Source: a virus
Length of the DNA stretch: 39,654 bases
Strand: one strand, 5' to 3'
Virus record (IMG/VR): IMGVR_UViG_3300046777_000353
Coordinates: 1-39,654 of that record
Shown piece by piece: positions 1 to 39,437 of the stretch. Each line of letters opens with the position of its first letter. Position 1 is the first letter of the stretch. The notes under the pieces were generated by a model. That model was not told the origin of the DNA, did no database searches, and was given only the letters and a program-made list of their open reading frames with translations. The translations under genes and the position numbers were made by a program.

Positions 1-22
1 CCTCCCCCTCCCTCTTAATAGT
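1..22. repeat. Terminal direct repeat, left copy
   Basis: The first 22 bases are identical to the last 22 bases of the window. A short perfect terminal overlap of this kind is the usual trace of a circular assembly graph opened at an arbitrary point, so the real molecule is probably circular or circularly permuted and about 39,632 bp long. The repeat is a pyrimidine-rich run ending in CTTAATAGT. A genuine packaged terminal repeat would normally be much longer. Confidence 0.85.
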
Positions 23-108
23 TGAAGTTTCAATTAAATTTAAAAGATTGTTTGGGGGTGGACAGTCTCCCCTCCCAATGTGCGCCCAACTTTCAGGGGG
101 TGCAAGCC

Positions 109-128
109 GTTATCAAATCGTTATCAAA
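109..128 (+). promoter_or_regulatory. Tandem 9-mer pair (site A) upstream of the first early promoter
   Basis: Two exact copies of GTTATCAAA lie at 109-117 and 120-128, an 11-bp step or about one helical turn. The pair ends 16 bp before a TTGACA box at 145. Pairs with the same step and nearly the same distance to TTGACA occur at 2040-2059 and 4656-4675, there on the opposite strand. The position, centred near -62 relative to a transcript start, is typical of class I activator sites. An A/T-rich UP element is the alternative. Confidence 0.5.
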
Positions 129-144
129 ATTTATTCAATTTGAC

Positions 145-173
145 TTGACACGGTTTAAACGGTGTGTTTTGAT
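145..173 (+). promoter_or_regulatory. Early promoter P1
   Basis: A consensus -35 box TTGACA (145-150) is followed after 17 bp by TTTGAT (168-173), a four-of-six match to TATAAT. It would start the first plus-strand transcript just upstream of the leader hairpin at 179-205. A GTTTAAAC palindrome (153-160) lies in the spacer and the tandem GTTATCAAA pair lies upstream, so the promoter appears to carry two kinds of control site. Confidence 0.55.
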
Positions 174-178
174 TGTCT

Positions 179-205
179 CATTGGTTAGTGAGGTGCTAAC
201 CAATG
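179..205 (+). promoter_or_regulatory. Leader hairpin with a ribosome-binding sequence in its loop
   Basis: CATTGGTTAG (179-188) pairs perfectly with CTAACCAATG (196-205), leaving the 7-base loop TGAGGTG. The loop is itself a Shine-Dalgarno sequence of the type used all over this genome, and the stem ends directly at the true ribosome-binding site GGAGGTGAAAG of the 217 gene. The hairpin would sit at the extreme 5' end of the first transcript. It may stabilise the mRNA or act as a standby or decoy ribosome site. The pairing is visible; the role is inferred. Confidence 0.5.
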
Positions 206-216
206 GAGGTGAAAGA

Positions 217-777
217 ATGAATCGTGAAGAATGGCTTTTGAAAGCCACTGAAATACTAGGCAAGAAGATTGAAGATAACGGGGGCAAGTTGCCAGAAGTT
301 AGGGTGTCGGTAGGTTTCCCTAAAGCGTCAGGACGCAACTCTAATTCTGTAATTGGGCAATGTTTTAACGGCGTTGCCACAGCAGACGGACGCCCTCAGA
401 TTTTCATTCACCCCGTTTTAGATGACTCTAAAAGGGTGTTAGATGTCCTATTGCACGAGTTGATTCACGCAAGTTTACCGCTAGGGGCAGGGCACGGGGT
501 AACGTTTAAACGCCTCGCCGTTGCTTGTGGACTTACTGGCAAGATGACCGCAACAACCGCCACGCCAGAACTTAACGCAGAACTTGCCCAACTTGTGGAA
601 GAACTAGGGGACTACCCTCACGCAAAACTAGACGCAAGCAATGCCAAAAAACAGGGCACGAGAATGTTAAAATGTGAATGCCCAGATTGTGGCTACATTG
701 CCTACACGTCTCGCAAGTGGCTTGATGAGATGGGTGCGCCAGTATGCCCAGAACACGGGCAAATGGCACAAGTTTAG
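217..777 (+). CDS. SprT-like zinc metallopeptidase
   Basis: The product is 186 aa. Residues 80-84 are HELIH, the HExxH zinc signature of SprT/Spartan-type metallopeptidases, with H93 as a possible third ligand. A C-terminal zinc ribbon follows (residues ~150-186) with C-x-C-x2-C and a later C-x2-H, as in many phage SprT proteins. Spartan relatives degrade DNA-crosslinked proteins; the role of phage versions is unknown. I chose the ATG at 217 because GGAGGTGAAAG sits just upstream. The same frame is open from a TTG at 22, but that extension runs through the promoter and leader hairpin. A GTTTAAAC palindrome lies inside the gene at 504. It is the first gene of the early arm. Confidence 0.75.
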   Translation: MNREEWLLKATEILGKKIEDNGGKLPEVRVSVGFPKASGRNSNSVIGQCFNGVATADGRPQIFIHPVLDDSKRVLDVLLHELIHASLPLGAGHGVTFKRLAVACGLTGKMTATTATPELNAELAQLVEELGDYPHAKLDASNAKKQGTRMLKCECPDCGYIAYTSRKWLDEMGAPVCPEHGQMAQV

Positions 778-785
778 GGGGTGCA

Positions 786-839
786 TCTCGCCCACCCCGA
801 AAGGGGTGGACGGGGTGGACTTGCTAAGATTTAGCGAGA
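786..839 (+). promoter_or_regulatory. Intercistronic three-stem RNA structure
   Basis: An outer stem TCTCG/CGAGA (786-790 with 835-839) encloses a perfect CACCCC-GAAA-GGGGTG hairpin with a GNRA loop (793-808) and a second hairpin GCTAA-GAT-TTAGC (823-835). The outer and second stems share one base at 835. The 9-base unit GGGGTGGAC is repeated in tandem at 803-811 and 812-820. No U-tract follows, so it is a weak terminator candidate. It may be an RNA-processing or stability element between the SprT-like gene and the next small gene. Confidence 0.4.
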
Positions 840-861
840 CCGTTTAAACGAGGTGATGAAA

Positions 862-1026
862 GTGAAAGAACCAATCGCAACAGACATCTACGAAAGACTA
901 GAGATGAACGAACAGGGCAAGGGTGGAAGCGTGGCAACAGACCTATACGCCTTACTAGATGAAGATTCTGACTATTCAGACTTTGAAGATTACTTTGGAG
1001 ACCTAGACCCGACAGAATTTTTATAG
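862..1026 (+). CDS. Small acidic protein, unknown function
   Basis: The product is 54 aa, beginning VKEPIATDIYERLEMNEQGK and ending in a strongly acidic stretch rich in Asp and Glu (DEDSDYSDFEDYFGDLD). I recognise no family. The GTG at 862 lies six bases after GAGGTG, the spacing used by neighbouring genes. An ATG at 856 in the same frame directly abuts that ribosome-binding site and would add two residues. A GTTTAAAC palindrome (842-849) lies immediately before the ribosome-binding site. The composition resembles DNA mimics or other charged early phage proteins, but that is only a resemblance. Confidence 0.6.
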   Translation: MKEPIATDIYERLEMNEQGKGGSVATDLYALLDEDSDYSDFEDYFGDLDPTEFL

Positions 1027-1032
1027 AGGTGC

Positions 1033-1066
1033 TTGACATCATCATTATCCCTAACTAAGGTTAGGG
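1033..1066 (+). promoter_or_regulatory. Early promoter P2 with inverted repeat over the -10 box
   Basis: TTGACA (1033-1038) is followed after 17 bp by TAAGGT (1056-1061). A perfect inverted repeat, CCCTAAC-TAAG-GTTAGGG (1049-1066), covers the -10 box and could be an operator or a hairpin at the start of the transcript. Unlike P1, P3 and P4, this promoter has no tandem GTTATNAAA pair upstream. Confidence 0.4.
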
Positions 1067-1120
1067 GTAGTGATGGTAGGCAAGAACTACCAGAACCAAC
1101 AACAAACAGAGGTGAAAAAA

Positions 1121-1621
1121 ATGAGTTGTTTCCAAGTTAATAAGGACACGCTAGACCTACTAGCAAGCGCAAGTTTTTGGACAGACCGCCAAATCTATTC
1201 ACGATTTGCGCCAGAGACAGAACGTTTAAACGACTTAGTGCAGATGTACGCAGACGGTGAAAATGTTCTAGGTATTCACAGCACACAGGAGCACGCAACG
1301 ATTCAAGCAATCGGCGAGGAACTTATGAGGGCTAACATTAAAAGCGTACTAGCCAGATACAATGACGGCGCAGAGATGATTGGTTACGATACCTACACCG
1401 CCGAACCTATCAAGGAATGGCAAGGAGTTGCGACCATTGAGGACGTACTAGGGGCAATCTTCTGCTATGAGTATCAGAGTTGCGAGTCTGAAGATTGGCG
1501 CAATAGTTGGGCGAGTGAATACTGCAACGCTCTACGCAAGAACATCTGTGCCAAGTTATCGGACGGGCGCTGGGAATACGAGCGACCAGAGGGAGCGCCT
1601 AAGTTGGTACGTATAGTCTAG
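1121..1621 (+). CDS. Conserved phage protein of unknown function
   Basis: The product is 166 aa, starting MSCFQVNKDTLDLLASASF. The ATG at 1121 has GAGGTGAAAAAA upstream; a GTG at 1070 in the same frame has no such site. A segment near residue 125 reads CYEYQSCESEDW, a pattern I associate with uncharacterised bacterial and phage proteins of similar length. No catalytic motif is evident. The gene is transcribed from the P2 promoter candidate and contains a GTTTAAAC palindrome at 1224 read in frame as Arg-Leu-Asn. Confidence 0.7.
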   Translation: MSCFQVNKDTLDLLASASFWTDRQIYSRFAPETERLNDLVQMYADGENVLGIHSTQEHATIQAIGEELMRANIKSVLARYNDGAEMIGYDTYTAEPIKEWQGVATIEDVLGAIFCYEYQSCESEDWRNSWASEYCNALRKNICAKLSDGRWEYERPEGAPKLVRIV

Positions 1622-1715
1622 TTAGCAAATCTCTACCCCGTGTTTAAACGGCACGGGTTAGGGGTTGGCTACCTAGCCAGAACGGAGAGACCGTTTAAAC
1701 AACACGAGGTGAAAG

Positions 1716-1892
1716 ATGAACATAACAATTACTAAAAACGAAAATGGTTTATACCTGACGACAGAATTTAGAGGGTGTAAATACGGGCAATTTTATAAAG
1801 ACATTAACGAAACCGAGGCAACTAATAGATTCCGTGATTATGTTAGACTATTAGATTGTGGTAGGTATTTAGAAGTAATGAGGGGCAACTAA
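1716..1892 (+). CDS. Small protein, unknown function
   Basis: The product is 58 aa, beginning MNITITKNENGLYLTTEF and ending YLEVMRGN. It has a good ribosome-binding site (GAGGTGAAAG) four bases before the ATG, preceded by a GTTTAAAC palindrome (1693-1700). The stop overlaps the start of the next gene as TAATG, so the two are probably translated together. The length and charge pattern are typical of phage early genes. No family is recognised. Confidence 0.6.
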   Translation: MNITITKNENGLYLTTEFRGCKYGQFYKDINETEATNRFRDYVRLLDCGRYLEVMRGN

Positions 1893-2029
1893 TGCCTAAG
1901 CATAGGAGAGTCTGGAATTGGACACCGAAGGCATACCGCTGGCGTGACAACTTAATCACGGGAGCGATAGCACTAGCGATACTAGGTTTATTCTGGTACA
2001 AAATCTGGTCAGGGTGGGGAAACGGATAA
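1892..2029 (+). CDS. Small membrane protein
   Basis: The product is 45 aa. A basic, Trp-rich N-terminus (MPKHRRVWNWTPKAYRWRDN) is followed by one hydrophobic helix (residues ~21-38, LITGAIALAILGLFWYKI), so it is probably a single-pass inner membrane peptide with its N-terminus in the cytoplasm. Its start overlaps the stop of the previous gene (TAATG). A GTTTAAAC palindrome begins two bases after its stop codon. No function can be assigned. Confidence 0.55.
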   Translation: MPKHRRVWNWTPKAYRWRDNLITGAIALAILGLFWYKIWSGWGNG

Positions 2030-2039
2030 CGTTTAAACA

Positions 2040-2059
2040 CTTTATAACAGTTTGATAAC
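2040..2059 (-). promoter_or_regulatory. Tandem 9-mer pair (site B) upstream of P3
   Basis: On the plus strand the two copies read CTTTATAAC (2040-2048) and TTTGATAAC (2051-2059), with their conserved ATAAC ends 11 bp apart. They are reverse complements of the GTTATNAAA form at site A. The pair ends 15 bp before TTGACA at 2075, the same geometry as site C. It is probably a binding site for a regulator of the early operons. Confidence 0.5.
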
Positions 2060-2074
2060 AGAATAGAAATGTGC

Positions 2075-2102
2075 TTGACACATAGGCACACACAAGTAAA
2101 CT
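2075..2102 (+). promoter_or_regulatory. Early promoter P3
   Basis: A consensus -35 box TTGACA (2075-2080) is followed after 16 bp by TAAACT (2097-2102). It lies 32 bp before the start codon of the 2134 gene and directly downstream of tandem site B. It would drive the run of small genes from 2134 to about 4548. Confidence 0.55.
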
Positions 2103-2133
2103 AGAAACAACTACTAATTCAGAGGTGAATTAA

Positions 2134-2316
2134 ATGATAACAGTAAGAAAGATACACCCATCAGGTGCGCTAGAGGTTAGCGCTATGGTGATGGGCTTAA
2201 CATCTCGCCAAGTCTGGCTTGAACGTAAGAACTATTACGGCTACAACAAGGACGAGGCACGCAGACTATTCAGAATCTACCTAGCCGAACACGGTTTCGG
2301 TCTAGTAAACGACTAA
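2134..2316 (+). CDS. Small protein, unknown function
   Basis: The product is 60 aa (MITVRKIHPSGALEVSAMVM to GFGLVND). The ATG is preceded by AGAGGTGAATTAA, a strong ribosome-binding site. The middle (SRQVWLERKNYYGYNKDEARRLF) looks like a small mixed alpha/beta fold in which a YxxxEA helix packs on a short sheet, a common layout in small phage proteins. No family is assigned. It is the first gene after P3. Confidence 0.6.
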   Translation: MITVRKIHPSGALEVSAMVMGLTSRQVWLERKNYYGYNKDEARRLFRIYLAEHGFGLVND

Positions 2317-2335
2317 GAGAGGACGTTTAAACACA

Positions 2336-2563
2336 ATGAAAAGAGATGAAGCAATAGCAAGATTGCAGGAGTGGCACAAGCCAGACGAAGAACTATTCAT
2401 AGTCTGGTGGGATAAAACATCAGGTGAGATGTACGCAGATGATGAGTTAACCGATAGCCATTGGGCTAAGGTGGTAAAGGAACTAGATAGTGATGAGTAC
2501 TTATTCCACGCAGTTAACGACACCATCACAGAGTTAGTAAACAAATCAGAAGAGGACGTTTAA
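2336..2563 (+). CDS. Small acidic protein, unknown function
   Basis: The product is 75 aa and rich in Asp, Glu and Trp (MKRDEAIARLQEWHKPDEEL, FIVWWDKTSGEMYADDEL). The gene sits between two GTTTAAAC palindromes. One (2325-2332) lies between a GAGAGGA ribosome-binding site and the ATG, giving an unusually long spacing of 13 bases. The other (2558-2565) contains the gene's own TAA stop codon. No family is recognised. Confidence 0.6.
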   Translation: MKRDEAIARLQEWHKPDEELFIVWWDKTSGEMYADDELTDSHWAKVVKELDSDEYLFHAVNDTITELVNKSEEDV

Positions 2564-2576
2564 ACGAGGTGGAACA

Positions 2577-2885
2577 ATGGTAATAAATAAAGTTAATGAC
2601 TGGACTATAATAAATGGTACAAGTCTTAAAGGTTATACAGGTAAGATAACAAGACGGAAACTTGAACAGGTTTTCGGACTACCAGAACAGTATGGTGAGG
2701 GTGACAAGGTAACAACCGAGTGGATTTTTACCATAGACAATGAGGTTGGAACTATCTACGATTGGAAACGCTACGAGCAGGGAGCACCAGACTTAGATGA
2801 ACCTTATGACTGGCACATTGGTGGACAGAACGACAAGATAGTTAAACTAATTCAACGAGCAATAACAAAATCAGAGGTGAAGTAA
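2577..2885 (+). CDS. Conserved small phage protein with WHIGG motif
   Basis: The product is 102 aa. A TIINGTSLKGYTGKITRRKL segment, a FGLPEQYGEGDKVTTEW segment, then IYDWKRYE and WHIGG resemble a small family seen in many phages in which a GTIYDWK stretch precedes WHIGG. Its function is unknown. The ATG follows GAGGTGGAACA. The last codons encode EVK-stop because the sequence GAGGTGAAGTAATG is also the ribosome-binding site and overlapping start of the next gene. Confidence 0.65.
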   Translation: MVINKVNDWTIINGTSLKGYTGKITRRKLEQVFGLPEQYGEGDKVTTEWIFTIDNEVGTIYDWKRYEQGAPDLDEPYDWHIGGQNDKIVKLIQRAITKSEVK

Positions 2886-3022
2886 TGACAACGTTTAAAC
2901 GCAAGACTAAGCAAGAGAAAACTATGGATAAATTAGATACACTAATGCTATCTATGGCAGATAAGAAAACATACAAACAGTACCTAAAGGCTAGGGCTGA
3001 CTATCTAAAAGAGGTGAAGTAA
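2885..3022 (+). CDS. Small basic helical protein
   Basis: The product is 45 aa, Lys-rich and probably helical (MTTFKRKTKQEKTMDKLDTL to YLKARADYLKEVK). The start overlaps the previous stop (TAATG). Its 3' end, GAGGTGAAGTAATG, again doubles as the ribosome-binding site of the next gene and encodes EVK-stop. A GTTTAAAC palindrome (2893-2900) is read here as ACG TTT AAA CGC. No family is recognised. Confidence 0.55.
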   Translation: MTTFKRKTKQEKTMDKLDTLMLSMADKKTYKQYLKARADYLKEVK

Positions 3023-3186
3023 TGAAGTACACAGTACACGTAAGTCTTACTGAGTATCGTAAGATTGAAGTAGAGGCTAACAACCAAGACGAGGCTATTG
3101 ATTTAGCCTTTGATGAGGACTTAGATAACTGGGAACTTGTCAAGAGTAAGACTAATAGCGTTGATGTAGATGAGGTGCAACTATGA
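3022..3186 (+). CDS. Small DpnD/PcfM-like protein
   Basis: The product is 54 aa: MKYTVHVSLTEYRKIEVEAN followed by QDEAIDLAFDEDL. The pattern of a short beta hairpin, a VEA-N-(x)-DEAI turn and a helix resembles the small DpnD/PcfM-like domain found in phage and plasmid proteins, whose function is unknown. It is translationally coupled at both ends: a TAATG overlap upstream and a 4-base ATGA overlap with the 3183 gene. Confidence 0.55.
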   Translation: MKYTVHVSLTEYRKIEVEANNQDEAIDLAFDEDLDNWELVKSKTNSVDVDEVQL

Positions 3187-3404
3187 GCGACACAATAGAG
3201 CAACGTATCCTAGATGTGACTGACAAGATGAAACTATTACAATGGCTATACCCTGATGTGTATGCCAAGTTAACAAGAGGTGAGGACAAGATGTATAAAT
3301 GTAATTGTGGTTTTACACAGGAGCAGGAGTGGTATCCGCCATACCCTGCACACGATGACACCTGCCCAATACAGATTGAACAGGTGAGTGACAATGACGA
3401 TTGA
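3183..3404 (+). CDS. Small Cys-containing protein, possible zinc binder
   Basis: The product is 73 aa. The first half is a predicted helix (MSDTIEQRILDVTDKMKLLQ); the second contains CNCGFTQEQEW and HDDTCPIQ, which together could form a Cys/His zinc site (C-x-C and H-x3-C). It overlaps the previous gene by four bases and the next by eleven. The function is unknown. Such small zinc-ribbon proteins are frequent in actinobacteriophage early regions. Confidence 0.6.
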   Translation: MSDTIEQRILDVTDKMKLLQWLYPDVYAKLTRGEDKMYKCNCGFTQEQEWYPPYPAHDDTCPIQIEQVSDNDD

Positions 3405-3636
3405 ATTTATCTGTGACTACTGCGACTGGCAGGGTGACCCTAAGGATTACACCGCACACATTAAGGATAATCCCAAGTGTGATGACCGCCTACCTTGTTG
3501 CAAGGTTGAGGAGATTGAGGACTATAACGAGTTTGAGATAGACGAAATCTGTGAGGACTGCACCAAGATTATCCACGATTACTATGAAGACCAATGGACT
3601 GACGCACTAATGGAGAGTTACTATGAAGGTAGGTAA
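3394..3636 (+). CDS. Small Cys-rich acidic protein, probable zinc finger
   Basis: The product is 80 aa. It starts MTIEFICDYCDWQG and has Cys pairs at C-x2-C near residues 7-10, a LPCC pair and a CEDC pair, which suggests one or two bound zinc ions. Much of the rest is Asp, Glu and Tyr. The ATG at 3394 is placed well after CAGGTGA; a GTG at 3388 would add two residues. The 3' end overlaps the whiB-like gene by 14 bases. Confidence 0.6.
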   Translation: MTIEFICDYCDWQGDPKDYTAHIKDNPKCDDRLPCCKVEEIEDYNEFEIDEICEDCTKIIHDYYEDQWTDALMESYYEGR

Positions 3637-3976
3637 AGTAACTATGCCCGTGTGGAACGGTTCAGAGGCGTGTTCAGGTATCGGAGTGGAATTATTCTAT
3701 GATGATAACCGCAAGACAGAATACCAAAACAGAATACACCACGAGAAACTAGTGGCTATCTGTAACTCTTGCCCCCGTTTAAACGACTGCTTTGAGTACG
3801 CCATACACCACGAACAGTATGGATTCTGGGCAGGTATGACTGAAGCACAACGCTATCAGTACCGCAAGACACACAAGATAAGACTGCTTAGACCTGAGAT
3901 GTATTCAGAGTGTATGCCAGAATTTAGCAGAGCAAAAAAGGAGGAGGACACAGATGATAATTTCTACAATGGATAA
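3623..3976 (+). CDS. WhiB-family iron-sulfur transcription regulator
   Basis: The product is 117 aa. Four cysteines are arranged as in WhiB/Wbl proteins: C17, then C47-N-S-C50 and C56, which bind a [4Fe-4S] cluster. They are followed by GFWAG (67-71), the counterpart of the GVWGG turn, and a basic YRKTHKIR tail. Wbl proteins bind the primary sigma factor and redirect host RNA polymerase; phage copies (for example in mycobacteriophage TM4) can repress host whiB genes and cause superinfection exclusion. The family is confined to Actinobacteria and their phages, which identifies the host group. GGAGAG precedes the ATG. A GTTTAAAC palindrome lies inside the Cys motif region (3777-3784). Confidence 0.9.
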   Translation: MKVGKVTMPVWNGSEACSGIGVELFYDDNRKTEYQNRIHHEKLVAICNSCPRLNDCFEYAIHHEQYGFWAGMTEAQRYQYRKTHKIRLLRPEMYSECMPEFSRAKKEEDTDDNFYNG

Positions 3977-4154
3977 AGAGCAACACATCTTTGAGAACAT
4001 ACACGTTTCAATAGAGGAAGATACAGCCAACATCTTTCTAGGTGAGACACACATAATGATGAAGTTGCCTACGTTTCAACGGCTTATGTTTACTATGAAC
4101 ACAGCCCTATTTGAACACGACCTAAAGCAACAACAAAAGAATAGCGAGTACTAA
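3954..4154 (+). CDS. Small protein, unknown function
   Basis: The product is 66 aa (MIISTMDKEQHIFENIHVSI to LKQQQKNSEY). The ribosome-binding site is AAGGAGGAGG, among the strongest in the window. A short beta-rich N-terminal half is followed by an amphipathic helix (PTFQRLMFTMNTALFEHDLK). It overlaps the end of the whiB-like gene by 23 bases and couples to the next gene by TAATG. No family is recognised. Confidence 0.6.
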   Translation: MIISTMDKEQHIFENIHVSIEEDTANIFLGETHIMMKLPTFQRLMFTMNTALFEHDLKQQQKNSEY

Positions 4155-4228
4155 TGCTGGGAGAAATCTTTTCTAACATAATGATACTTGTAACAGTTGT
4201 CTTGATTTACTTTATGGGTAAACCTTGA
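4154..4228 (+). CDS. Tiny membrane peptide
   Basis: The product is only 24 aa, MLGEIFSNIMILVTVVLIYF plus MGKP. Nearly all of it is a single hydrophobic helix. The start overlaps the previous stop (TAATG), and the end overlaps the TTG start of the next gene as TTGA. Overlap on both sides supports it being translated. It may be a small membrane-active early peptide; function unknown. Confidence 0.45.
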   Translation: MLGEIFSNIMILVTVVLIYFMGKP

Positions 4229-4548
4229 GGACTAGAAAGAAAGAATTAGACGCTATCGTTAGGCTATTAGAAAGCGAACACGAAGACGTTGAGGATTTAG
4301 CAGAAGCCATCTGGAAACTGGTAGACGACCAACGTAGAGACCGTGAGATGTGGGTAGTAGCGGTGCGTATGGACGGTATGAACTTTCTGTACGGCACATA
4401 CGATAGCGAAGCAACAGCAAGGAAAGATGTAGAGAACGGAAACATTAAAGGTGTTGGACTGGACAATAAGTTTATGCTAATGAAACTATTAAGTCCATCA
4501 GAAATCTTTAAGTCTTACGAACCTGCAACTCTCTTTGACTTTAGATAG
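4225..4548 (+). CDS. Protein of unknown function, last gene of first early operon
   Basis: The product is 107 aa from a TTG start at 4225 that overlaps the previous stop (TTGA). A charged helical N-terminus (KKELDAIVRLLESEHEDVED, then LAEAIWKLVDDQRRDRE) is followed by a beta-rich part (MWVVAVRMDGMNFLYGTYDS) in which the YDSEATARKD segment resembles a turn-helix of small phage proteins. A later internal start is possible, but the coupling favours 4225. It is followed directly by the two hairpins at 4553-4642. Confidence 0.55.
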   Translation: MRTRKKELDAIVRLLESEHEDVEDLAEAIWKLVDDQRRDREMWVVAVRMDGMNFLYGTYDSEATARKDVENGNIKGVGLDNKFMLMKLLSPSEIFKSYEPATLFDFR

Positions 4549-4552
4549 GTTT

Positions 4553-4587
4553 CAGTTTGCGCTAACTCTTGGCGTTAGTGTAAACTG
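4553..4587 (+). ncRNA. Hairpin 1 of the post-operon structured RNA
   Basis: CAGTTTGCGCTAAC (4553-4566) pairs along its whole length with GTTAGTGTAAACTG (4574-4587), using two G-U pairs and a 7-base loop. It starts five bases after the stop codon of the preceding gene. There is no U-tract directly behind it, so it is more likely part of a longer structured 3' end together with hairpin 2 than a complete terminator. Confidence 0.5.
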
Positions 4588-4592
4588 GATAC

Positions 4593-4649
4593 GAACAGGG
4601 GTTGAGCACCTGCGTTTCACCTCCGCCTTGCTCCCCCTGTTCACCTTTT
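4593..4649 (+). ncRNA. Hairpin 2 with exposed anti-Shine-Dalgarno loop
   Basis: GAACAGGGG (4593-4601) pairs with CCCCTGTTC (4634-4642); after a 2-base bulge, GAGCA (4604-4608) pairs with TGCTC (4629-4633). The 20-base loop contains TTTCACCTCC (4615-4624), the exact complement of GGAGGTGAAA, the ribosome-binding sequence used by the 217 gene and, in shorter form, by many early genes. It also matches the TCACCTCC of the 16S rRNA 3' end. TTTT (4646-4649) follows, so it could end the first operon. It may be a simple terminator or a small RNA that competes for ribosome-binding sites. The structure is seen; the role is inferred. Confidence 0.5.
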
Positions 4650-4655
4650 AAAATC

Positions 4656-4675
4656 AATTATAACAATTTCATAAC
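4656..4675 (-). promoter_or_regulatory. Tandem 9-mer pair (site C) upstream of P4
   Basis: On the plus strand the copies read AATTATAAC (4656-4664) and TTTCATAAC (4667-4675), with ends 11 bp apart. The pair ends 15 bp before TTGACA at 4691, exactly as site B does before P3. The common pattern TTTNATAAC, the helical spacing and the constant distance to the promoter point to a shared activator site. Confidence 0.5.
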
Positions 4676-4690
4676 AGACGGCGTGTCAAT

Positions 4691-4719
4691 TTGACACAAA
4701 AAATAAGTACGTGTATAAT
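4691..4719 (+). promoter_or_regulatory. Early promoter P4, full sigma-70 consensus
   Basis: TTGACA (4691-4696), a 17-bp spacer and TATAAT (4714-4719) form a perfect housekeeping-sigma promoter, the strongest in the window. It lies 98 bp upstream of the split nuclease operon. The leader carries a CACACC-GTAA-GGTGTG hairpin (4750-4765). The start codon at 4817 is preceded directly by GTTTAAAC (4808-4815), so initiation here may be under the same control as other early genes. Confidence 0.8.
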
Positions 4720-4749
4720 CTCTGGGTGTCGGGGGTTGTTAATTAATTA

Positions 4750-4765
4750 CACACCGTAAGGTGTG
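4750..4765 (+). promoter_or_regulatory. Leader hairpin downstream of P4
   Basis: CACACC (4750-4755) pairs with GGTGTG (4760-4765) around a GTAA tetraloop of the stable GNRA class. It lies in the 5' leader of the P4 transcript, about 50 bases before the start codon at 4817. No U-tract follows, so it is probably a stability or translation element and not a terminator. Confidence 0.4.
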
Positions 4766-4816
4766 ATAACATAAACTTTATAACTTAATAAAATAAAACA
4801 GTAAGGTGTTTAAACA

Positions 4817-5020
4817 ATGTTAAAAATAAATGGGTACGAAGTACCTGCTCACGTTAGTCATAGTCAGATAACTACGTGGTCATCTTGTGGTCACAAGTAT
4901 TTCTTAAACAAAATTGCTAACGTACCTGAAGGTGGTACTTGGTGGTTAGTTGGTGGCAGTAGCGTACACGAAGCAACTGAAGCCTATGACCGTGCACTAT
5001 GGGAACGTGAGGGTAGATAA
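4817..5020 (+). CDS. Cas4/RecB-like nuclease, N-terminal half (split gene)
   Basis: The product is 67 aa. It matches the beginning of the PD-(D/E)XK exonucleases of the Cas4/RecB type common in actinobacteriophages: HVSHSQITTWSSCGHKYFL (12-30), where C24 is the first cysteine of the iron-sulfur cluster, then VGGSSVHEATEAYDRA (45-60) with H51. In relatives this continues directly into the catalytic domain in one chain of roughly 280-300 aa. Here it stops after EREGR; the catalytic part resumes at 5234 after an unrelated 73 aa gene. The two halves must assemble if the enzyme is active. The ribosome-binding site is weak (GTAAGGTG), with GTTTAAAC right before the ATG. Confidence 0.7.
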   Translation: MLKINGYEVPAHVSHSQITTWSSCGHKYFLNKIANVPEGGTWWLVGGSSVHEATEAYDRALWEREGR

Positions 5021-5241
5021 TGATTGCAATAGGTGGACCATTTGATGGTAAAAATTATAGTGATGGTATTCCAAAAGAAACTCTAACTATCCTTGACCCA
5101 TACATTGTAGATGGTGAAGTACATTTAGCAAGATACCGTAGACTTGAAGACAGTTGGGTTTACATAGAGGTTGACCCTATGCCTGGAGACTTGTACGAAA
5201 TTGCTACTATTAAAGATGTAACAGAGGTAGATAATGGCTAA
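5020..5241 (+). CDS. Small GGPFDGK protein inserted between nuclease halves
   Basis: The product is 73 aa, beginning MIAIGGPFDGKNYSDGIPKE and including HLARYRRLEDSWVYIE. Small phage proteins starting with a GGPFDG motif and ending with a Y-rich strand are widespread but uncharacterised. The gene starts in a TAATG overlap with the N-terminal nuclease half and overlaps the C-terminal half by eight bases. Near-identical sequences GAGGGTAGATAATG (5009-5022) and GAGGTAGATAATG (5224-5236) mark its two ends, which suggests that the cassette arrived as an insertion. Confidence 0.65.
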   Translation: MIAIGGPFDGKNYSDGIPKETLTILDPYIVDGEVHLARYRRLEDSWVYIEVDPMPGDLYEIATIKDVTEVDNG

Positions 5242-5887
5242 AGTTAAAGCAAAACAATTAGAAGCAAATGATTATTGGTTAGAAGCGTGGGAACGTTTAA
5301 CTAACAGACAGATAGACGCAACAGGTCAGAAGCCTGACACTTGGCGAGCAGGTGGACGTGCAACTAAAGACTATCCAGACAGAGAGAACGGTGACTGGTG
5401 GGCTAAGCACGGCGTTGGTATGGTGCAGAACTGGATTGATTGGCGTGACCAAGACCATCACGGGCTATCACTATGGGTTACACCTGAAGGTGTACCTGCC
5501 ATTGAACTAGGTTTAAACATTGAACTTGGTGGTGTGCCAGTTAAGATGGCACTAGACCGTGTGATGGTTAACCCATTAGATGAACTCATTGTAGTTGACT
5601 TAAAGACTGGCAAGAGTACACCATCATCAGACTTTCAGTTGGGTATGTATGCCGTAGGTATGGAGATTACCTTTGGTGTACGTCCGCAGTATGGTACGTA
5701 TTGGTCTGCACGTGAGGGTTTAACTACTGAACTAATTAACCTAGACAAGTGGACTATTGAACGTGCAACTGAAGTAGTTGTAATGTTTGACAACGCACGC
5801 AAGGCTGGTATCTTTGTACCAAACTTTGACCACTGTAAGATGTGTAACTATACTAGTGTTTGTAAATATCAGGGAGGTGAAATGTAA
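5234..5887 (+). CDS. Cas4/RecB-like nuclease, catalytic half (split gene)
   Basis: The product is 217 aa. It carries the catalytic signature of PD-(D/E)XK exonucleases: D108 in MALDRV, D122-L-K124 in IVVDLKTGK and Q135-x3-Y139 in FQLGMY. The cluster cysteines C201, C204 and C210 follow (HCKMCNYTSVC). The fourth cysteine and the N-terminal helix are supplied by the separate 67 aa protein at 4817. Such nucleases process double-strand ends in recombination. The start ATG overlaps the inserted gene and follows GAGGTAGATA. A GTTTAAAC palindrome occurs at 5511 within the gene. Confidence 0.75.
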   Translation: MAKVKAKQLEANDYWLEAWERLTNRQIDATGQKPDTWRAGGRATKDYPDRENGDWWAKHGVGMVQNWIDWRDQDHHGLSLWVTPEGVPAIELGLNIELGGVPVKMALDRVMVNPLDELIVVDLKTGKSTPSSDFQLGMYAVGMEITFGVRPQYGTYWSAREGLTTELINLDKWTIERATEVVVMFDNARKAGIFVPNFDHCKMCNYTSVCKYQGGEM

Positions 5888-6063
5888 TGTTCGTTACTAA
5901 GAAAAGATACAACGACCTATACACAGAGTACAAGAGGATGTTAAATAATAACGTTGAACTTGTACAAATCATTTGTGATTCAGATGAATACATCAAAGAG
6001 TTAGAAGAAAAACTAACAAAGAAAAAAGTTGCGAAGAAAGCAACTAAGAAAGTGAGTAAGTAA
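5887..6063 (+). CDS. Small coiled-coil protein with Lys-rich tail
   Basis: The product is 58 aa. A helical heptad-like region (MFVTKKRYNDLYTEYKRML to EYIKELEEKL) is followed by a tail of lysine, alanine and valine (TKKKVAKKATKKVSK) reminiscent of nucleic-acid-binding tails. It is coupled by TAATG overlaps to the nuclease half before it and to the zinc-ribbon gene after it. It may assist DNA processing, but no family is recognised. Confidence 0.6.
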   Translation: MFVTKKRYNDLYTEYKRMLNNNVELVQIICDSDEYIKELEEKLTKKKVAKKATKKVSK

Positions 6064-6497
6064 TGAGTGAGAAAAACTATGTTGTCAATGTCAAGACAAC
6101 AGCAGGTACAATCATCACTGTACGTGGTGATAGTGCAGAAGAACTAGCCAGTAACATCAATGGGCTAGTATCAGGTGGAGTTAATGACCACGTAGGTGCA
6201 TTAGAAGAATTGTTCTTGGGAAAAGGTAATGCACCTATCGTTAACTCTGCAGTAGCAACAGTTACCGAAGCACTAGGTGCAACCGTAGTATCAGAAACTA
6301 AGTTCGCACCTAAGACACCACCATCAGCACCTGCTGTAGGCGGTAAGACCTGTGTACACGGGGCTATGGTCAAGCGCACTGGCAACGGTGCAAAAGGTGA
6401 GTGGCGTGGATTCTTCTGTCCTACTCCGAAGGGTACAGAAGGTCAGTGCTCACCAGTGTTCGCTCGTCAGGGTTCCGCTGACTGGCAAAGTTTCTAG
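6063..6497 (+). CDS. Zinc-ribbon protein of the recombination cluster
   Basis: The product is 144 aa. The N-terminal ~45 residues look like a small beta-alpha fold (YVVNVKTTAGTIITVRGDSA, EELASNI). A Pro/Ala-rich linker follows, and the C-terminus holds a probable zinc site: C-x-H-G (CVHGAMVKRTG), then FFCPTPKG and QCSPVF. A CPHG-then-CP-PKG-QC pattern occurs in actinobacteriophage proteins located beside Cas4-like exonucleases and primases. It may bind single-stranded DNA or regulate the nuclease. Known function: none. Confidence 0.65.
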   Translation: MSEKNYVVNVKTTAGTIITVRGDSAEELASNINGLVSGGVNDHVGALEELFLGKGNAPIVNSAVATVTEALGATVVSETKFAPKTPPSAPAVGGKTCVHGAMVKRTGNGAKGEWRGFFCPTPKGTEGQCSPVFARQGSADWQSF

Positions 6498-6651
6498 TAT
6501 CCTAACTGTTACTAGAAAAATATAACTGAATATAGGGGAAGTTATGTATCTGACTTGAGGGAAGCAGGAAGGATACAGGGGTGTAGGTAACCAAGCCTAC
6601 GTGTGGTGCAAGTCCACACATCCCACGTTTAAACAACACAAGTGAGGATGA
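6498..6651 (+). promoter_or_regulatory. Structured leader upstream of the ATPase gene
   Basis: This 154-base gap can form several stems: GTATCCT (about 6497-6503) with AGGATAC, ATAACT with AGTTAT, GTAGG with CCTAC, and GTGTGG with CCACAC around a TGCAAGT loop. The GGTGCAAGTCC string and an upstream GGGAA resemble pieces of cobalamin riboswitches, but the B12 box and the later core are missing or out of order. A GTTTAAAC palindrome (6627-6634) lies between the last stem and the ribosome-binding site. It is probably a structured mRNA leader of unknown type. Confidence 0.4.
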
Positions 6652-7434
6652 ATGAAGACATTAAGACGCTCTGTTGGTAAGGCTGACATCGGTGGTGAAC
6701 CAATGCCAACTGTGTTTAGAACATTTGAAAACAATCAGATAGTTCTTAGACGCAGTGAGGTATCTGTTATTGCAGGTACACCTGGTGCTGGTAAATCTAC
6801 TCTTGCCTTAGCCTTAGCATTGCGTATTCAAATGCCTACGTTGTATGTGTCTGCAGATACCAATGCTCACACTATGGCTATGCGTTTGTATTCAATGATT
6901 GAAGGTGTATCACAATCAGATGCAGAGAAGATTATCTCTGACGACCCTGATAAGGCTAGAGAAAAACTAGCAATGGCTAGTCACATCTACTGGTCATTTG
7001 AATCTGCCCCATCACTAGGTGATTTAGATGATGAGGTTACCGCACTAGAAGAAATACTTGGTGACTCACCTGCACTGATAGTCATTGATAACCTAATGGA
7101 TATCTCAATGGATGGCGGAGATGAGTTCGGTAATATGCGAGCCGCTATGAAAGAATTAAAGTTCTTAGCCCGTGATACTAACGCTGCAGTTCTAGTACTA
7201 CACCACACCAAAGAAAGTTATGCTGGTAATCCTTGCCAACCTAGCCAAGCCTTACAGGGTATGGTTAACCAGTTACCTGCACTAGTACTTACAGTTGGAC
7301 AACAGGATGGATTACTAGGGGTAGCACCAGTTAAGAATCGTTATGGTAGGGCTGACCGCAGTGGTAACACTTGCTATTGGCTACAGTTCTCGCCAGAATA
7401 TATGTTCATTGCAGACTTAGAGGAAGCACGATGA
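6652..7434 (+). CDS. RecA/DnaB-like replicative ATPase (helicase-type)
   Basis: The product is 260 aa. It has a Walker A motif GTPGAGKST (42-50), a Walker B strand LIVIDN (142-147) and a HHTKE segment (184-188) like the sensor histidine of DnaB/KaiC proteins. VKNRYGR (near 228) supplies the Lys/Arg that act in trans in hexamers. It corresponds to the C-terminal motor of DnaB-like helicases without the N-terminal primase-binding domain, so it is probably the phage replication helicase or loader. AGTGAGGATGA precedes the ATG. A structured leader separates it from the upstream genes. Confidence 0.75.
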   Translation: MKTLRRSVGKADIGGEPMPTVFRTFENNQIVLRRSEVSVIAGTPGAGKSTLALALALRIQMPTLYVSADTNAHTMAMRLYSMIEGVSQSDAEKIISDDPDKAREKLAMASHIYWSFESAPSLGDLDDEVTALEEILGDSPALIVIDNLMDISMDGGDEFGNMRAAMKELKFLARDTNAAVLVLHHTKESYAGNPCQPSQALQGMVNQLPALVLTVGQQDGLLGVAPVKNRYGRADRSGNTCYWLQFSPEYMFIADLEEAR

Positions 7435-7526
7435 TAGATGAACTATGTAGGCACAAAGCAATCGTTGATAAGCCAACTAACTACACAGTATGTAGACTTT
7501 GCGGAGAGATTTTAGTAGGTAAATAA
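7431..7526 (+). CDS. Tiny zinc-binding peptide
   Basis: The product is 31 aa, MIDELCRHKAIVDKPTNYTV then CRLCGEILVGK. C6, H8 and C21-x2-C24 could hold one zinc ion, as in many tiny actinobacteriophage zinc knuckles. It overlaps the ATPase gene by four bases (ATGA) and couples to the next gene by TAATG. Its position between replication genes suggests a role with them; nothing more can be said. Confidence 0.5.
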   Translation: MIDELCRHKAIVDKPTNYTVCRLCGEILVGK

Positions 7527-7699
7527 TGGAACATCTTATTGAGTACAAAGAAATGCGTGAAGCAATAGCACGAGTGCGTGAGTTGCATTATGTAGATAAG
7601 TATGCAAATACAGAAGTTTGTCATATTTGCAATACAAGTAATGGCATTGCAATTCCATATCCTTGTGACACTATTAAAGCCCTAGATGGTGAGCAGTAG
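7526..7699 (+). CDS. Small zinc-finger protein
   Basis: The product is 57 aa. A helical N-terminus (MEHLIEYKEMREAIARVREL) is followed by CHICNTSNG and PYPCDTIKAL. C-x2-C plus a later PC-DTIKAL turn is a frequent small-protein signature in actinobacteriophages, probably a zinc knuckle. TAATG overlap upstream and TAGTG overlap downstream show tight translational coupling. Confidence 0.6.
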   Translation: MEHLIEYKEMREAIARVRELHYVDKYANTEVCHICNTSNGIAIPYPCDTIKALDGEQ

Positions 7700-7860
7700 T
7701 GTACATATTCTGGACTGTATTAGTTGCTATCTTCACCTTCATTGCAGGGTTTACCTACGGTAGGATGGTAGGTATCAACGCTATGTTGCAGTTAGGCTCA
7801 GAGATTTATCCGAACTTTAAAGACAAGTTAGTTAATCATATTATTAAAGGAAAGAAATGA
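7699..7860 (+). CDS. Small membrane protein
   Basis: The product is 53 aa from a GTG start overlapping the previous stop (TAGTG). Residues ~2-22 (YIFWTVLVAIFTFIAGFTYG) form one membrane helix; the rest is a short soluble tail ending in KGKK. The end overlaps the next gene by four bases. It is one of several tiny membrane proteins interspersed among early genes. Function unknown. Confidence 0.5.
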   Translation: MYIFWTVLVAIFTFIAGFTYGRMVGINAMLQLGSEIYPNFKDKLVNHIIKGKK

Positions 7861-8381
7861 CCGTACTTGCTGGACTAGTACACGATGGTAAAGTTTACAT
7901 TGGTGCTGACCGTGGTATGTCTGACGACAACTTTATCTCATCATCATTGACACCTAAGATACGTAAGATTGGTTCAATGTTAATTGCATACTCTGCATCA
8001 CGTGGCACTGGACAGTTGATGCACTTTGCTAATTACCCTGAGCCACGCACTGATAACCTTGAAGCGTACCTTCGTATTGATTTCTGTGAAGCAATACAGA
8101 AAGCATCAGAGTTATTTAAGATTGACATTAACACCAAAGAGAATGGTGCTGACATTTTAGTTGGTATCAAGGGTAGATTGTTTGACATCACTACAGAAGA
8201 TTGGTCAGTGTCTGAGTATGAGTATACGGCTCAAGGTTCTGGTTACGCTTACGCTATCGGTAGTCTTCACGCTACTAATAAGTTAGATATACCACCACGC
8301 ACTAGAGTTAAGATGGCAATAGAAGCATCTATCAAACATTCACCTGAGTGTGAAGCACCGATAGATATATTAAGTGTTTGA
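7857..8381 (+). CDS. Ntn-hydrolase, HslV/proteasome-beta-like
   Basis: The product is 174 aa. After Met1 comes T2 (MTVLAGLVHDGKVYIGADRG), the position of the catalytic N-terminal threonine in proteasome beta and HslV subunits, with the following GADRG loop (D18) as in that fold. A glycine-rich AQGSGYAYAIGS segment is also typical. Ntn-hydrolases of this type appear in some phages, where their targets are unknown. No partner ATPase such as HslU is present in the window, so it would act alone or with host unfoldases. It is coupled by ATGA to the previous gene. Confidence 0.65.
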   Translation: MTVLAGLVHDGKVYIGADRGMSDDNFISSSLTPKIRKIGSMLIAYSASRGTGQLMHFANYPEPRTDNLEAYLRIDFCEAIQKASELFKIDINTKENGADILVGIKGRLFDITTEDWSVSEYEYTAQGSGYAYAIGSLHATNKLDIPPRTRVKMAIEASIKHSPECEAPIDILSV

Positions 8382-8871
8382 CTATAGAACCGCTATGACC
8401 GAAGGTCACAAGTACGGTAGGTACATAGCAGACAAGTTAGAACTGGAAGGTATATCCTGCACAGTTCCTGACTTGTATTTAGTTGAATCAATGGAAGAGA
8501 TACCGCATATGACACAGACTGAAAAGGATATCATCATAGATAGAACTGGTGATTGTCTTGAGGTTAAGTCACGCAACATTGAGTTCACATCAATAGATGA
8601 TTTCCCTTGGGGTAACATCATTGTTGATACGGTATCTGGTTACAAGGCTAAGATGCAAAAGCCTATGGCTTATGTTATGGTCTCACAACCTACAGGTTGT
8701 GCGTTTGCTGTGATGAGTGACACTGAACAGCACTGGACAACAAAGCGTTTAAACGACAAACAACGTGGACACAGTGATAACTTCTACGTTGTAACTAGAG
8801 AACACTTTGTGTCGTTTGATTATTTAGTTAACGCTATTAAGGAAGAGGAACTACGATGGGTTGGTTTGTAA
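8374..8871 (+). CDS. Putative PD-(D/E)XK nuclease-like protein
   Basis: The product is 165 aa from a GTG overlapping the preceding stop by eight bases. EKDIIIDRTGDCLEVKSR (50-67) has the spacing of a restriction-fold active site, with D60 and E63-V-K65. The N-terminal helix (HKYGRYIADKLELEG) and the strand pattern fit the same fold. I cannot name a specific family, so nuclease activity is a moderate inference. Candidate roles are host DNA degradation or recombination. A GTTTAAAC palindrome (8747-8754) is read in frame as Arg-Leu-Asn. Confidence 0.5.
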   Translation: MFDYRTAMTEGHKYGRYIADKLELEGISCTVPDLYLVESMEEIPHMTQTEKDIIIDRTGDCLEVKSRNIEFTSIDDFPWGNIIVDTVSGYKAKMQKPMAYVMVSQPTGCAFAVMSDTEQHWTTKRLNDKQRGHSDNFYVVTREHFVSFDYLVNAIKEEELRWVGL

Positions 8872-8933
8872 TAGGTGTACTTGTGGGAATACTTGGCATA
8901 CTAATTTACCTTGACAGAGACGATTATCAGTGA
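8856..8933 (+). CDS. Tiny membrane peptide
   Basis: The product is 25 aa, MGWFVIGVLVGILGILIYLD plus RDDYQ. One hydrophobic helix fills almost the whole peptide. GGAAGAGG lies before the ATG, and the gene overlaps both the preceding nuclease-like gene and the GTG start of the next gene (GTGA). It may be a small membrane effector; function unknown. Confidence 0.45.
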   Translation: MGWFVIGVLVGILGILIYLDRDDYQ

Positions 8934-9265
8934 GCAAACAAAAACAAAAAGGTACTTCTGCGGAAACTGCAGTTGTCAAATGGTTACAAAGTAAAGGGCG
9001 TAAGGACGTAGAACGCCGTGCCCTGCACGGAACCAATGACCGTGGTGATATTGCTGGAATCCCCTGTGTTGTAATTGAAGTTAAGAATCACAAACAGATT
9101 AAACTATCTGAATGGTTGAAAGAGTTAGAGGTGGAGATGAAGAACGACAAGGCTGACACTGGTGTTATCATACACAAGAAGACTGGCACGACTGATGTTG
9201 GTCAGTGGTATGCAACTATGCCAGTTGAAGTATGGTTTAAACTATTGGAGGAAGCAGGTTACTAG
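8930..9265 (+). CDS. Holliday-junction-resolvase-like PD-(D/E)XK nuclease
   Basis: The product is 111 aa from a GTG start. MSKQKQKGTSAETAVVKWL carries the conserved Glu (E12) of the family, followed by RGDIAGIP (D40) and VVIEVKNHK (E50, K52), the E-D-ExK active site of small resolvase-type nucleases found in many mycobacteriophages. These resolve branched DNA during replication and packaging. It sits between a small membrane peptide and the primase genes and overlaps both neighbours (GTGA, TAGTG). Confidence 0.7.
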   Translation: MSKQKQKGTSAETAVVKWLQSKGRKDVERRALHGTNDRGDIAGIPCVVIEVKNHKQIKLSEWLKELEVEMKNDKADTGVIIHKKTGTTDVGQWYATMPVEVWFKLLEEAGY

Positions 9266-9633
9266 TGAAGCACAGCATCCTAGAAGTTCTCCAATACTAT
9301 GGAGTAAAGAACTTAAGGGAGTGTCACGGCTGGCAGAAGATGAAGTGTCCTATCCACGATGATAGTCACGCATCTGCAGGGGTGAACATAGACGATAACA
9401 TCTTTACGTGCCACGGTTGTGGAGTTAAAGGTGACACATATAAACTTATAATGGTTAAGGAAGGAATAAAATATAATGAGGCTATCAACTACGCAGAAAC
9501 AATCACTGGCAAAAGCCGTACAGAAATACAAGGGTTCAATCCATCTAGCGGAAGACTACCTAGCCAGGAGAGGGCTAACGCTGGAAGACGCAAATACAGC
9601 CCACCTAGGAGTCGTAGAACATCCTCTACCTAG
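9265..9633 (+). CDS. DNA primase, zinc-binding half (split gene)
   Basis: The product is 122 aa from a GTG start in a TAGTG overlap. Residues 20-60 contain the CHC2-type zinc finger of DnaG primases: C28-x2-H31 (MKCPIHDDSHAS) and C49-x2-C52 (TCHGCGVKGDTYKL). After about residue 85 the sequence turns Arg/Ser/Pro-rich and non-native in look, because it runs through the frame that encodes the TOPRIM half. That half lies one base ahead in a different frame from 9476, giving a 158-base overlap. It is either two polypeptides or a frameshift product. Confidence 0.75.
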   Translation: MKHSILEVLQYYGVKNLRECHGWQKMKCPIHDDSHASAGVNIDDNIFTCHGCGVKGDTYKLIMVKEGIKYNEAINYAETITGKSRTEIQGFNPSSGRLPSQERANAGRRKYSPPRSRRTSST

Positions 9634-10093
9634 CCACGAACAATACCGTGGTCGCTTAGTTATTCCATACCTCACACCTACTGGTGTGGTAGACATTCGG
9701 TTCCGTGCTATGGGTCCTGAAGAACCTAAGTATATGGGTTTGCCTGGTACTCACACACGGTTATATAATGTTACTGCATTACAACAAGCAGGAGATTTCA
9801 TTGCGGTCTGTGAAGGCGAGATTGATGCGCTTACTTTACATTATAAGTGTGGGATTCCTGCTGTTGGTGTTCCAGGTGCAACTGCGTGGAAGAAACATTA
9901 CACACGCATCCTCCAAGACTTTGAGAAGGTATATGTTTTTGCGGACGGTGACCAACCAGGGTCAGACTTCGCAAAGAACATCGCCAAAGAACTCCAATCA
10001 GTAATCACATTACAGATGCCAGAAGGCGAAGATGTTAACAGCCAGTTCCTACAACACGGATACGAATACTTCAGGGAAAAGGTAGCAGTATGA
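9476..10093 (+). CDS. DNA primase, TOPRIM catalytic half (split gene)
   Basis: The product is 205 aa. It has the TOPRIM signature of DnaG primases: E113 in VCEGEIDALTL and D157/D159 in VFADGDQPGSDFA, with the preceding YLARRGLT and GRLVIPYLTPTG segments of the catalytic core. The ATG at 9476 is preceded at 9457-9465 by AAGGAAGGA, so it can be translated on its own. The frame is +1 relative to the zinc-finger half. Primases of other actinobacteriophages are also sometimes in two adjacent genes. A single-base assembly error is the main alternative. Confidence 0.75.
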   Translation: MRLSTTQKQSLAKAVQKYKGSIHLAEDYLARRGLTLEDANTAHLGVVEHPLPSHEQYRGRLVIPYLTPTGVVDIRFRAMGPEEPKYMGLPGTHTRLYNVTALQQAGDFIAVCEGEIDALTLHYKCGIPAVGVPGATAWKKHYTRILQDFEKVYVFADGDQPGSDFAKNIAKELQSVITLQMPEGEDVNSQFLQHGYEYFREKVAV

Positions 10094-10644
10094 GACGTAA
10101 ACCAATATATGATTTAGACCTAATCATTAATGACATTGAAGATATATTTGAATGGCTAGAAGAATTACACTATGAAGTATACCAACTTAAGCAAGGAGGA
10201 AGTGGAGTTTCTGGTAAGGACGATAAGCGACCTGGGGTTTATAGTTCTTTCATTGAAGAACTCTACGGACGAGACATTAACTTTGACGGTAGCGAGAGCG
10301 GAATTAAGATGACTCCGTGGGATATCACTATGGAAATTATGGAAGAGTCTGGTGTGTTTGACTGGCGTGATGACGCACAAGATGTCTATGATTCCCTGTT
10401 TGAAATCCTTGTCAAGAAACAGAATGACTACGGTCCTGACAATGTGCGTAAGGCACCTGGTGGTCCACTAAATGGTTTGTCTGTACGTTTACACGACAAG
10501 ATAGCAAGGTTATCTAATCTCCTAGCAACAGGTGCTACACCTGAGAATGAATCCTTACGTGATACCTTTGTTGATATTGCGAACTATGGGGTTATTGGTA
10601 TTATGATATTAGATGACACATTCCCCAAGAGCAAGGATGCCTAG
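10090..10644 (+). CDS. DUF1599/Nmad1-like protein
   Basis: The product is 184 aa. The C-terminal half (NDYGPDNVRKAPGGPLNGLS, then RLHDKIARLSNLL, then ESLRDTFVDIANYGVIGIMI) matches the all-helical DUF1599, also called nucleotide-modification-associated domain 1. It is found in phages and linked by genomic context to modified-nucleotide metabolism. The first ~100 residues are acidic and helical and not recognised. The start overlaps the primase stop (ATGA). No base-modifying enzyme is recognisable elsewhere in the window, so the modification link is only suggestive. Confidence 0.65.
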   Translation: MRRKPIYDLDLIINDIEDIFEWLEELHYEVYQLKQGGSGVSGKDDKRPGVYSSFIEELYGRDINFDGSESGIKMTPWDITMEIMEESGVFDWRDDAQDVYDSLFEILVKKQNDYGPDNVRKAPGGPLNGLSVRLHDKIARLSNLLATGATPENESLRDTFVDIANYGVIGIMILDDTFPKSKDA

Positions 10645-12237: not shown

Positions 12238-12245
12238 AAAAAAGA

Positions 12246-12280
12246 CCCCCCTATGGAGAAGAGGAGACTCCATAGAGGGG
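12246..12280. terminator. Bidirectional intrinsic terminator between convergent arms
   Basis: CCCCCCTATGGAG (12246-12258) pairs with CTCCATAGAGGGG (12268-12280) with one mismatch in 13. On the plus strand ATTCTTATTT follows. On the minus strand the hairpin is followed by eight consecutive T (complement of the A-run at 12236-12243). It can therefore stop early transcripts coming from the left and late transcripts coming from the right, preventing collision between the arms. Confidence 0.85.
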
Positions 12281-12296
12281 ATTCTTATTTAAGTGG

Positions 12297-14980: not shown

Positions 14981-14988
14981 TTAGACTC

Positions 14989-15987: not shown

Positions 15988-15990
15988 AGA

Positions 15991-39269: not shown

Positions 39270-39291
39270 AACGCCGCCCATAAGCGGCGTT
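39270..39291. repeat. Hairpin AACGCCGC/GCGGCGTT
   Basis: AACGCCGC (39270-39277) pairs perfectly with GCGGCGTT (39284-39291) around the loop CCATAA. On the plus strand TTATTTACC follows; on the minus strand TTTATTTGG. It is the first of three consecutive GC-rich hairpins in the noncoding right end and could end transcripts or serve as an origin structure. Confidence 0.55.
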
Positions 39292-39308
39292 ATTTACCAG
39301 TTATCAGC
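39289..39308 (+). promoter_or_regulatory. Degenerate tandem 9-mer pair (site E)
   Basis: GTTATTTAC (39289-39297) and GTTATCAGC (39300-39308) repeat the GTTAT core with the same 11-bp step as sites A-D. The copies are more degenerate in their last bases. On the minus strand no TTGACA lies at the expected distance, so if a late promoter is here it must lack a good -35 box. Confidence 0.3.
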
Positions 39309-39399: not shown

Positions 39400-39417
39400 A
39401 AGACCCTGTAACGTTTT

Positions 39418-39437
39418 GTTACCAAATTGTTATAAAC
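39418..39437 (+). promoter_or_regulatory. Tandem 9-mer pair (site D)
   Basis: GTTACCAAA (39418-39426) and GTTATAAAC (39429-39437) repeat the consensus of site A with the same 11-bp step. A single further copy, GTTATAAAG, lies at 39394-39402. No promoter with TTGACA lies at the distance seen for sites A, B and C, so this pair may serve replication or a different promoter. Confidence 0.4.

Follow-up and report, generated by a model that had tools for sequence, protein, structure and literature searches.

Paired 11-bp repeats upstream of early promoters in an actinophage are putative boxes for the host response regulator MtrA

Freshwater actinobacteria have abundant phages, most of which have yet to be cultured, and the response regulator MtrA is essential in M. 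tuberculosis. The C. glutamicum MtrA box reads (A/G)TAACAATttn(A/G)TAACAAT and is activating when it lies upstream of the -35 element, while repressing sites are found near -10 (PMC3353115). In M. tuberculosis the box consists of two heptamers, t/c-G/t-T/a-n-a-C/T-c, separated by a 4-bp spacer, and fas is a strong target that MtrA binds with a KD of 4.62E-08 M (PMC11215152). The ectABCD genes of S. venezuelae are activated by MtrA (PMC13189361), and repression of some genes by MtrA is described both in C. glutamicum (PMC3353115) and in Streptomyces (PMC13189361). Phages that read a host response regulator are of a known kind, as illustrated by CtrA (PMC9437464) and PhoB (PMC10976474). As far as the literature that we searched shows, the sites described below are new in their regulator, phylum, rigid helical geometry and spread, and a search for MtrA together with phage promoters returned no paper.

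The window, by which we mean the whole stretch of DNA that was analysed, is a virus record of 39,654 bases with a 22-bp terminal repeat at its ends. A predicted WhiB-like regulator marks its phage as an actinophage, and we infer an actinobacterial host, from the Planktophila order or close to it. Megablast of positions 1-20000 and an Rfam search gave no match, and INPHARED, searched for isolates with similar promoters, yielded chance matches only. Using the terminase as query, 509 relatives were matched in IMG/VR and 80 loci were retained; counts of WhiB signatures on fragment loci are too low for use. The pairs of sites and the TTGACA boxes at 145, 2075 and 4691 lie where an earlier note on this DNA had placed them, and the features of the window are the following:

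106..124, minus strand: putative Box A, MtrA-type direct repeat; the plus strand reads GTTATCAAATCGTTAT at 109-124, GTTAY orientation, 36 bp before TTGACA
145..150, plus strand: TTGACA as -35 box of early promoter A; its -10 is likely TTTGAT at 168-173, read by eye
217..777, plus strand: first gene downstream of promoter A; its product is SprT-like (Pfam E 1.4e-4, which misses the curated cut-off)
2044..2062, plus strand: putative Box B, ATAACAGTTTGATAACAGA, RTAAC orientation, 31 bp before TTGACA
2075..2102, plus strand: promoter B, TTGACA-16-TAAACT
3623..3976, plus strand: WhiB-like regulator (Pfam E 2.5e-11, PHROG E 2.7e-14)
4660..4678, plus strand: putative Box C, ATAACAATTTCATAACAGA, RTAAC orientation, 31 bp before TTGACA
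4679..4687, plus strand: CGGCGTGTC, the second element conserved at many phage promoters, lying between box C and promoter C with a gap of exactly 3 bp to TTGACA
4691..4719, plus strand: promoter C, a perfect TTGACA-17-TATAAT (12/12)
39289..39308, plus strand: pair D, unsupported as a box
39415..39433, minus strand: putative Box E, ATAACAATTTGGTAACAAA, 17/18 to the C. glutamicum MtrA consensus, pointing to the leftward structural operon

Two side observations concern the early region. A PD-(D/E)XK nuclease seems to be split at 4817-5887, with an N-terminal-looking piece at 4817-5020, the C-terminal part at 5234-5887 (Pfam profile from position 82) and a separate ORF at 5020-5241 between them. 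The palindrome GTTTAAAC occurs 19 times in the window, 16 times in the early quarter and often in intergenic DNA (153, 504, 842, 1224, 1642, 1693, 2031, 2325, 2558, 2893, 3777, 4808, 5511, 6627, 8747, 9235); its density is equal in L013 and L014, and stands at 2.3 per 10 kb in the clade versus 0.04 in more distant relatives.

The motif had been given as GTTATNAAA, which is roughly right, with both copies exact at site A only: mismatches in the first and second copies number 0 and 0 at A, 0 and 1 at B, 0 and 2 at C, 1 and 1 at E, and 2 and 2 at D. The true unit is (Y)GTTAY(C), recurring each 11 bp. Indeed, the spacing of GTTAY pairs in the window and its relatives peaks at exactly 11 bp (85 pairs), with fewer at all other spacings from 5 to 40. 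The window alone holds seven GTTAY-N6-GTTAY pairs versus 0.63 per dinucleotide shuffle, and three TTGACA boxes with a GTTAY pair 20-40 bp upstream versus a shuffle mean of 0.01. One could propose that the sites are simply an AT-rich UP element bound by the alpha subunit of RNA polymerase, or that they arose by chance, since they lie in AT-rich DNA immediately before the -35 box. We give this proposal next to no credence, because none of 300 shuffles reached either count, so that AT richness fails as an explanation; the earlier note had already doubted that it suffices and had itself named such a comparison as a refutation test. Moreover, the conserved G and C of the half-site, the exact 11-bp repeat and the existence of sites 42-53 bp from TTGACA are not features of an UP element.

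The two extra pairs reported in the divergent region fared differently. Box E is nearly invariant in every relative that covers this region, and no TTGAC was found near it. Pair D was dropped: it sits in hairpin-rich DNA, scores below 13/18 to the MtrA consensus, is unconserved in relatives and looks like chance. Several GC-rich hairpins follow one another at 39230-39370, in the DNA that separates box E from the terminase operon, and relatives have them as well. The divergent region of relatives (L010, L013, L015-L019, L021, L022, L028) also carries tandem DnaA-type boxes (GTTATCCACAGGTTATCCACAGG) upstream of terminase, likewise 11 bp apart and absent from that of the window, which may represent a replication origin.

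The distance to TTGACA, described previously as a fixed 15-16 bp, masks two registers; what holds is a fixed helical phase. At site A, GTTAY points towards the promoter and the 16-mer starts 36 bp before TTGACA, while sites B and C have the opposite orientation and start at 31 bp, and relatives have either these same offsets or ones that differ from them by whole 11-bp turns. In the close clade, the distance from the start of an RTAAC-oriented box to the TTGAC that follows is exactly 31 bp in 15 cases and 53 bp in 5, 53 being 31 plus two turns, and the promoters with a box at 53 bp also hold a weaker GTAAA pair at 31, giving four half-sites in 11-bp register. In the GTTAY orientation the offsets are 25, 26 or 36. 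More distant phages among the relatives have no such boxes at their promoters. We also scanned IMG/VR for a box at fixed spacing to TTGAC, with half-turn shifts as controls. The RTAAC orientation (R) gave 32 stretches at offset 31 and 70 at offset 42, with 7 at the half-turn offset 36; the GTTAY orientation (F) gave 57 at offset 25 and at least 119 at offset 36, with 18 at the half-turn offset 30. After removal of near-copies, distinct sites at R31, R36 and R42 number 23, 6 and 32, and those at F25, F30 and F36 number 27, 5 and 68 (F36 among the matches listed). A TANNNT -10 at the right distance accompanies 4, 0 and 4 of the former and 16, 0 and 39 of the latter, F36 again being counted among the matches listed. 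The boxes of the window fall at these same offsets, A at 36, and B and C at 31. Peaks in register with troughs at half-turns, as observed here, are predicted for an activator that binds a single helical face, and the fixed helical phase with the promoter that is looked for in an activator site was found. Judged from the -10 boxes, the centre of the box is some 56 to 65 bp upstream of the expected start (-56 to -65), close to the -62 of the earlier note, where activation would putatively be of class I.

Which protein reads the sites? We consider it probable that they are boxes for the host OmpR-family response regulator MtrA, through which phage early promoters would be activated; MtrA or a close OmpR-family relative is the best explanation for the reader. 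The sites comprise two direct repeats at an 11-bp period, their half-site follows the published consensus, and the pattern occurs at known targets. Site A reads CGTTATC-AAAT-CGTTATC and fits the M. tuberculosis heptamers. The match to the C. glutamicum consensus is 17/18 for E, 16/18 for C, 15/18 for B and 14/18 for A. Other identities were rejected on their letters. The DnaA box has the consensus TTATNCACA, and the sites read GTTATCAAA, GTTATAAAG and similar, which do not fit. A PHO box was our first idea, from the 11-bp period; the box of Streptomyces PhoP consists of GTTCACC repeats, and the core letters at the sites do not fit it.

Known targets emerged when the pattern RTAACRATTTNRTAACNR, taken from the phages, was run blind over 395 Actinomycetes genomes with the reversed pattern as control, giving 22 matches versus 1. 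Ten of the 22 fall in one common upstream region with conserved flanks, and in the three of these that were tested (L109, L110, L113) the downstream frame is FAS-I (Pfam FAS_AT_central). Two other matches precede ectA (TIGR02406, over the cut-off), and one precedes an otsA-like gene. Within the Planktophila order (121 genomes) there were 47 matches versus 9 for the control, mostly intergenic and before secreted proteins resembling transporter substrate-binding proteins (one tested by Pfam). Their offsets to -35-like boxes are 37 or 47 bp for F and 52 bp for R, with phases within one base of the phage ones. The earlier proposal of an activator-type site upstream of -35, in fixed relation to it and in both orientations, is therefore well supported by the phasing across IMG/VR together with the similar offsets at host promoters.

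MtrA scores over the NCBIfam cut-off in all six Planktophila genomes, a genus that may not contain the host of the window's phage, and its recognition-helix region is nearly identical to that of M. tuberculosis MtrA. Although MtrA is encoded, Planktophila genomes G001 and G003-G006 show no excess of boxes over the control, and the strict box thus appears unused by this genus. No box was found upstream of mtrA in Planktophila, where it had been sought as a test of autoregulation. The Planktophila phages E7 and F5 were isolated on one of the box-poor genomes (PMC10202952). They are the nearest isolated Planktophila phages (57% terminase identity) and were tried as positive cases, and no boxes were found in them. 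Box-free E7 and F5 together with box-poor Planktophila fit hosts elsewhere in the order and leave room for another regulator. Within the Planktophila order, box-rich genomes encode an OmpR-type regulator family (EAIGGS...DTHASRLR; L467-L470, L472, L473) that some box-poor ones lack, although there are exceptions.

It is conceivable, then, that another host regulator of the OmpR family, be it GlnR, one of AfsQ1 type or an unnamed one of the box-rich genomes, binds the boxes and activates likewise, which we judge rather unlikely. Sites of GlnR and AfsQ1 are similar 11-bp repeats (GTnAC-n6-GAAAC or GTnAC-n6-GTnAC), and a GlnR-like protein is encoded in Planktophila. However, a GlnR box needs G first (Gn2AC-n6-GnAAC), whereas A comes first in 81% of 36 distinct phage boxes, which also have a conserved ATT core; at the promoters of its ammonium transporters, Planktophila has another box, GTAAC-n6-GTAAC, in which G comes first and the ATTT core is lacking. 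GlnR was rejected on these grounds. The extra OmpR-type regulator occurs in five of the six box-rich genomes and is absent from G001, G002 and G005, yet it is missing from G473 and G002, both of which have boxes. Finally, fas and ectA are targets of MtrA (PMC11215152, PMC13189361), which again argues for MtrA as the reader.

Many phage promoters carry the second element besides. GTGTC-N3-TTGACA occurs 42 times in phage loci versus 0-8 times at other spacings, and CGGCGTGTCNNCTTGACA is found in at least 120 IMG/VR stretches. Since CGTGTCNNNTTGACA gave one match and one control match in 101 genomes of the host order, the spaced CGGCGTGTC element is no host promoter type, and CGGCGTGTC-N3-TTGACA is phage-specific. 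WhiA was tried as a candidate reader, GTGTC being the reverse complement of GACAC, but host genomes contain next to no copies of the spaced element. The element (4679-4696 in the window; L202, L208, L590-L617) is very common in virus contigs, often beside MtrA-type boxes, and in L202 and L208 the two alternate in tandem. In other phages (L212, L214, L216), arrays of TTTGGTAACAT-like 11-bp repeats adjoin repeated TTTGACC units. The abundance of CGGCGTGTC in phages and its near absence from hosts indicate that phage-specific factors probably act at some promoters. By extension, a DNA-binding protein of the phage itself, such as the product of a small early ORF or the WhiB-like protein, could recognise the pairs, and many early ORFs of the window are without a family match in Pfam and PHROG searches. 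We nevertheless regard this as improbable: bacterial genomes, too, are enriched in the boxes, which are also common to very different phages (GC 0.27-0.64). No OmpR-type DNA-binding domain is encoded in the window.

We infer that MtrA binds at the boxes and that it activates rather than represses. Two MtrA molecules would be arranged head to tail, each on one of two half-sites a helical turn from each other, immediately before the -35 box of three early phage promoters and on a fixed face of the helix, from where MtrA most likely recruits or stabilises host RNA polymerase carrying the housekeeping sigma factor. Early transcription would therefore depend on, or be boosted by, active MtrA. The opposite scenario, in which MtrA or a relative silences the early promoters until the host state changes, appears very unlikely. 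It draws on the repression of some C. glutamicum and Streptomyces genes by MtrA and on promoter C being already a perfect consensus promoter. However, C. glutamicum sites repress near -10 and activate upstream of -35 (PMC3353115), and all sites here are upstream of -35 with the helical phase kept.

With activation by MtrA, the state of the host cell would set the timing of infection. More tentatively, a large and as yet undescribed class of actinophage promoters, in unrelated phages, may be wired in helical register to host MtrA, such that early infection reads the envelope, osmotic or cell-cycle state, in many cases combined with the phage-only CGGCGTGTC-N3-TTGACA as a second switch. If so, the timing of infection in lakes would hinge on host physiology, as has been suggested for CtrA and the phages of alphaproteobacteria, the boxes would provide a sequence signature for locating actinophage promoters, and the reading of host state by phages could be tested simply in a laboratory strain that lacks mtrAB.

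The sites resemble the known MtrA boxes of C. glutamicum, M. tuberculosis and Streptomyces (PMC3353115, PMC11215152, PMC13189361) in their 11-bp direct repeat, in the half-site (Y)GTTAY(C) or RTAACAAT, in the ATTT core shared with C. glutamicum and in their position upstream of -35 at activated genes. Unlike these, they lie at phage early promoters, in strict register with TTGACA and in both orientations, and are predicted from sequence. Actinobacterial GlnR boxes (PMC3662644, PMC6988585) also have two 5-bp half-sites 11 bp apart, but with G first and an unconserved spacer, and in Planktophila they stand at ammonium transporters with another core. The CtrA sites of alphaproteobacterial phages (PMC9437464) are likewise sites for a host master cell-cycle response regulator in phage promoters of several independent lineages. 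There, the regulator and phylum are different, the phages are tied to the pilus or flagellum, and binding and regulation are experimental, whereas here the evidence comes from sequence. Cyanophage PhoB boxes (PMC10976474) also place a host regulator of the OmpR/PhoB family in the service of phage promoters; they serve a subset of genes under phosphate stress through a looser motif, whereas the boxes described here stand before early operons in a rigid geometry.
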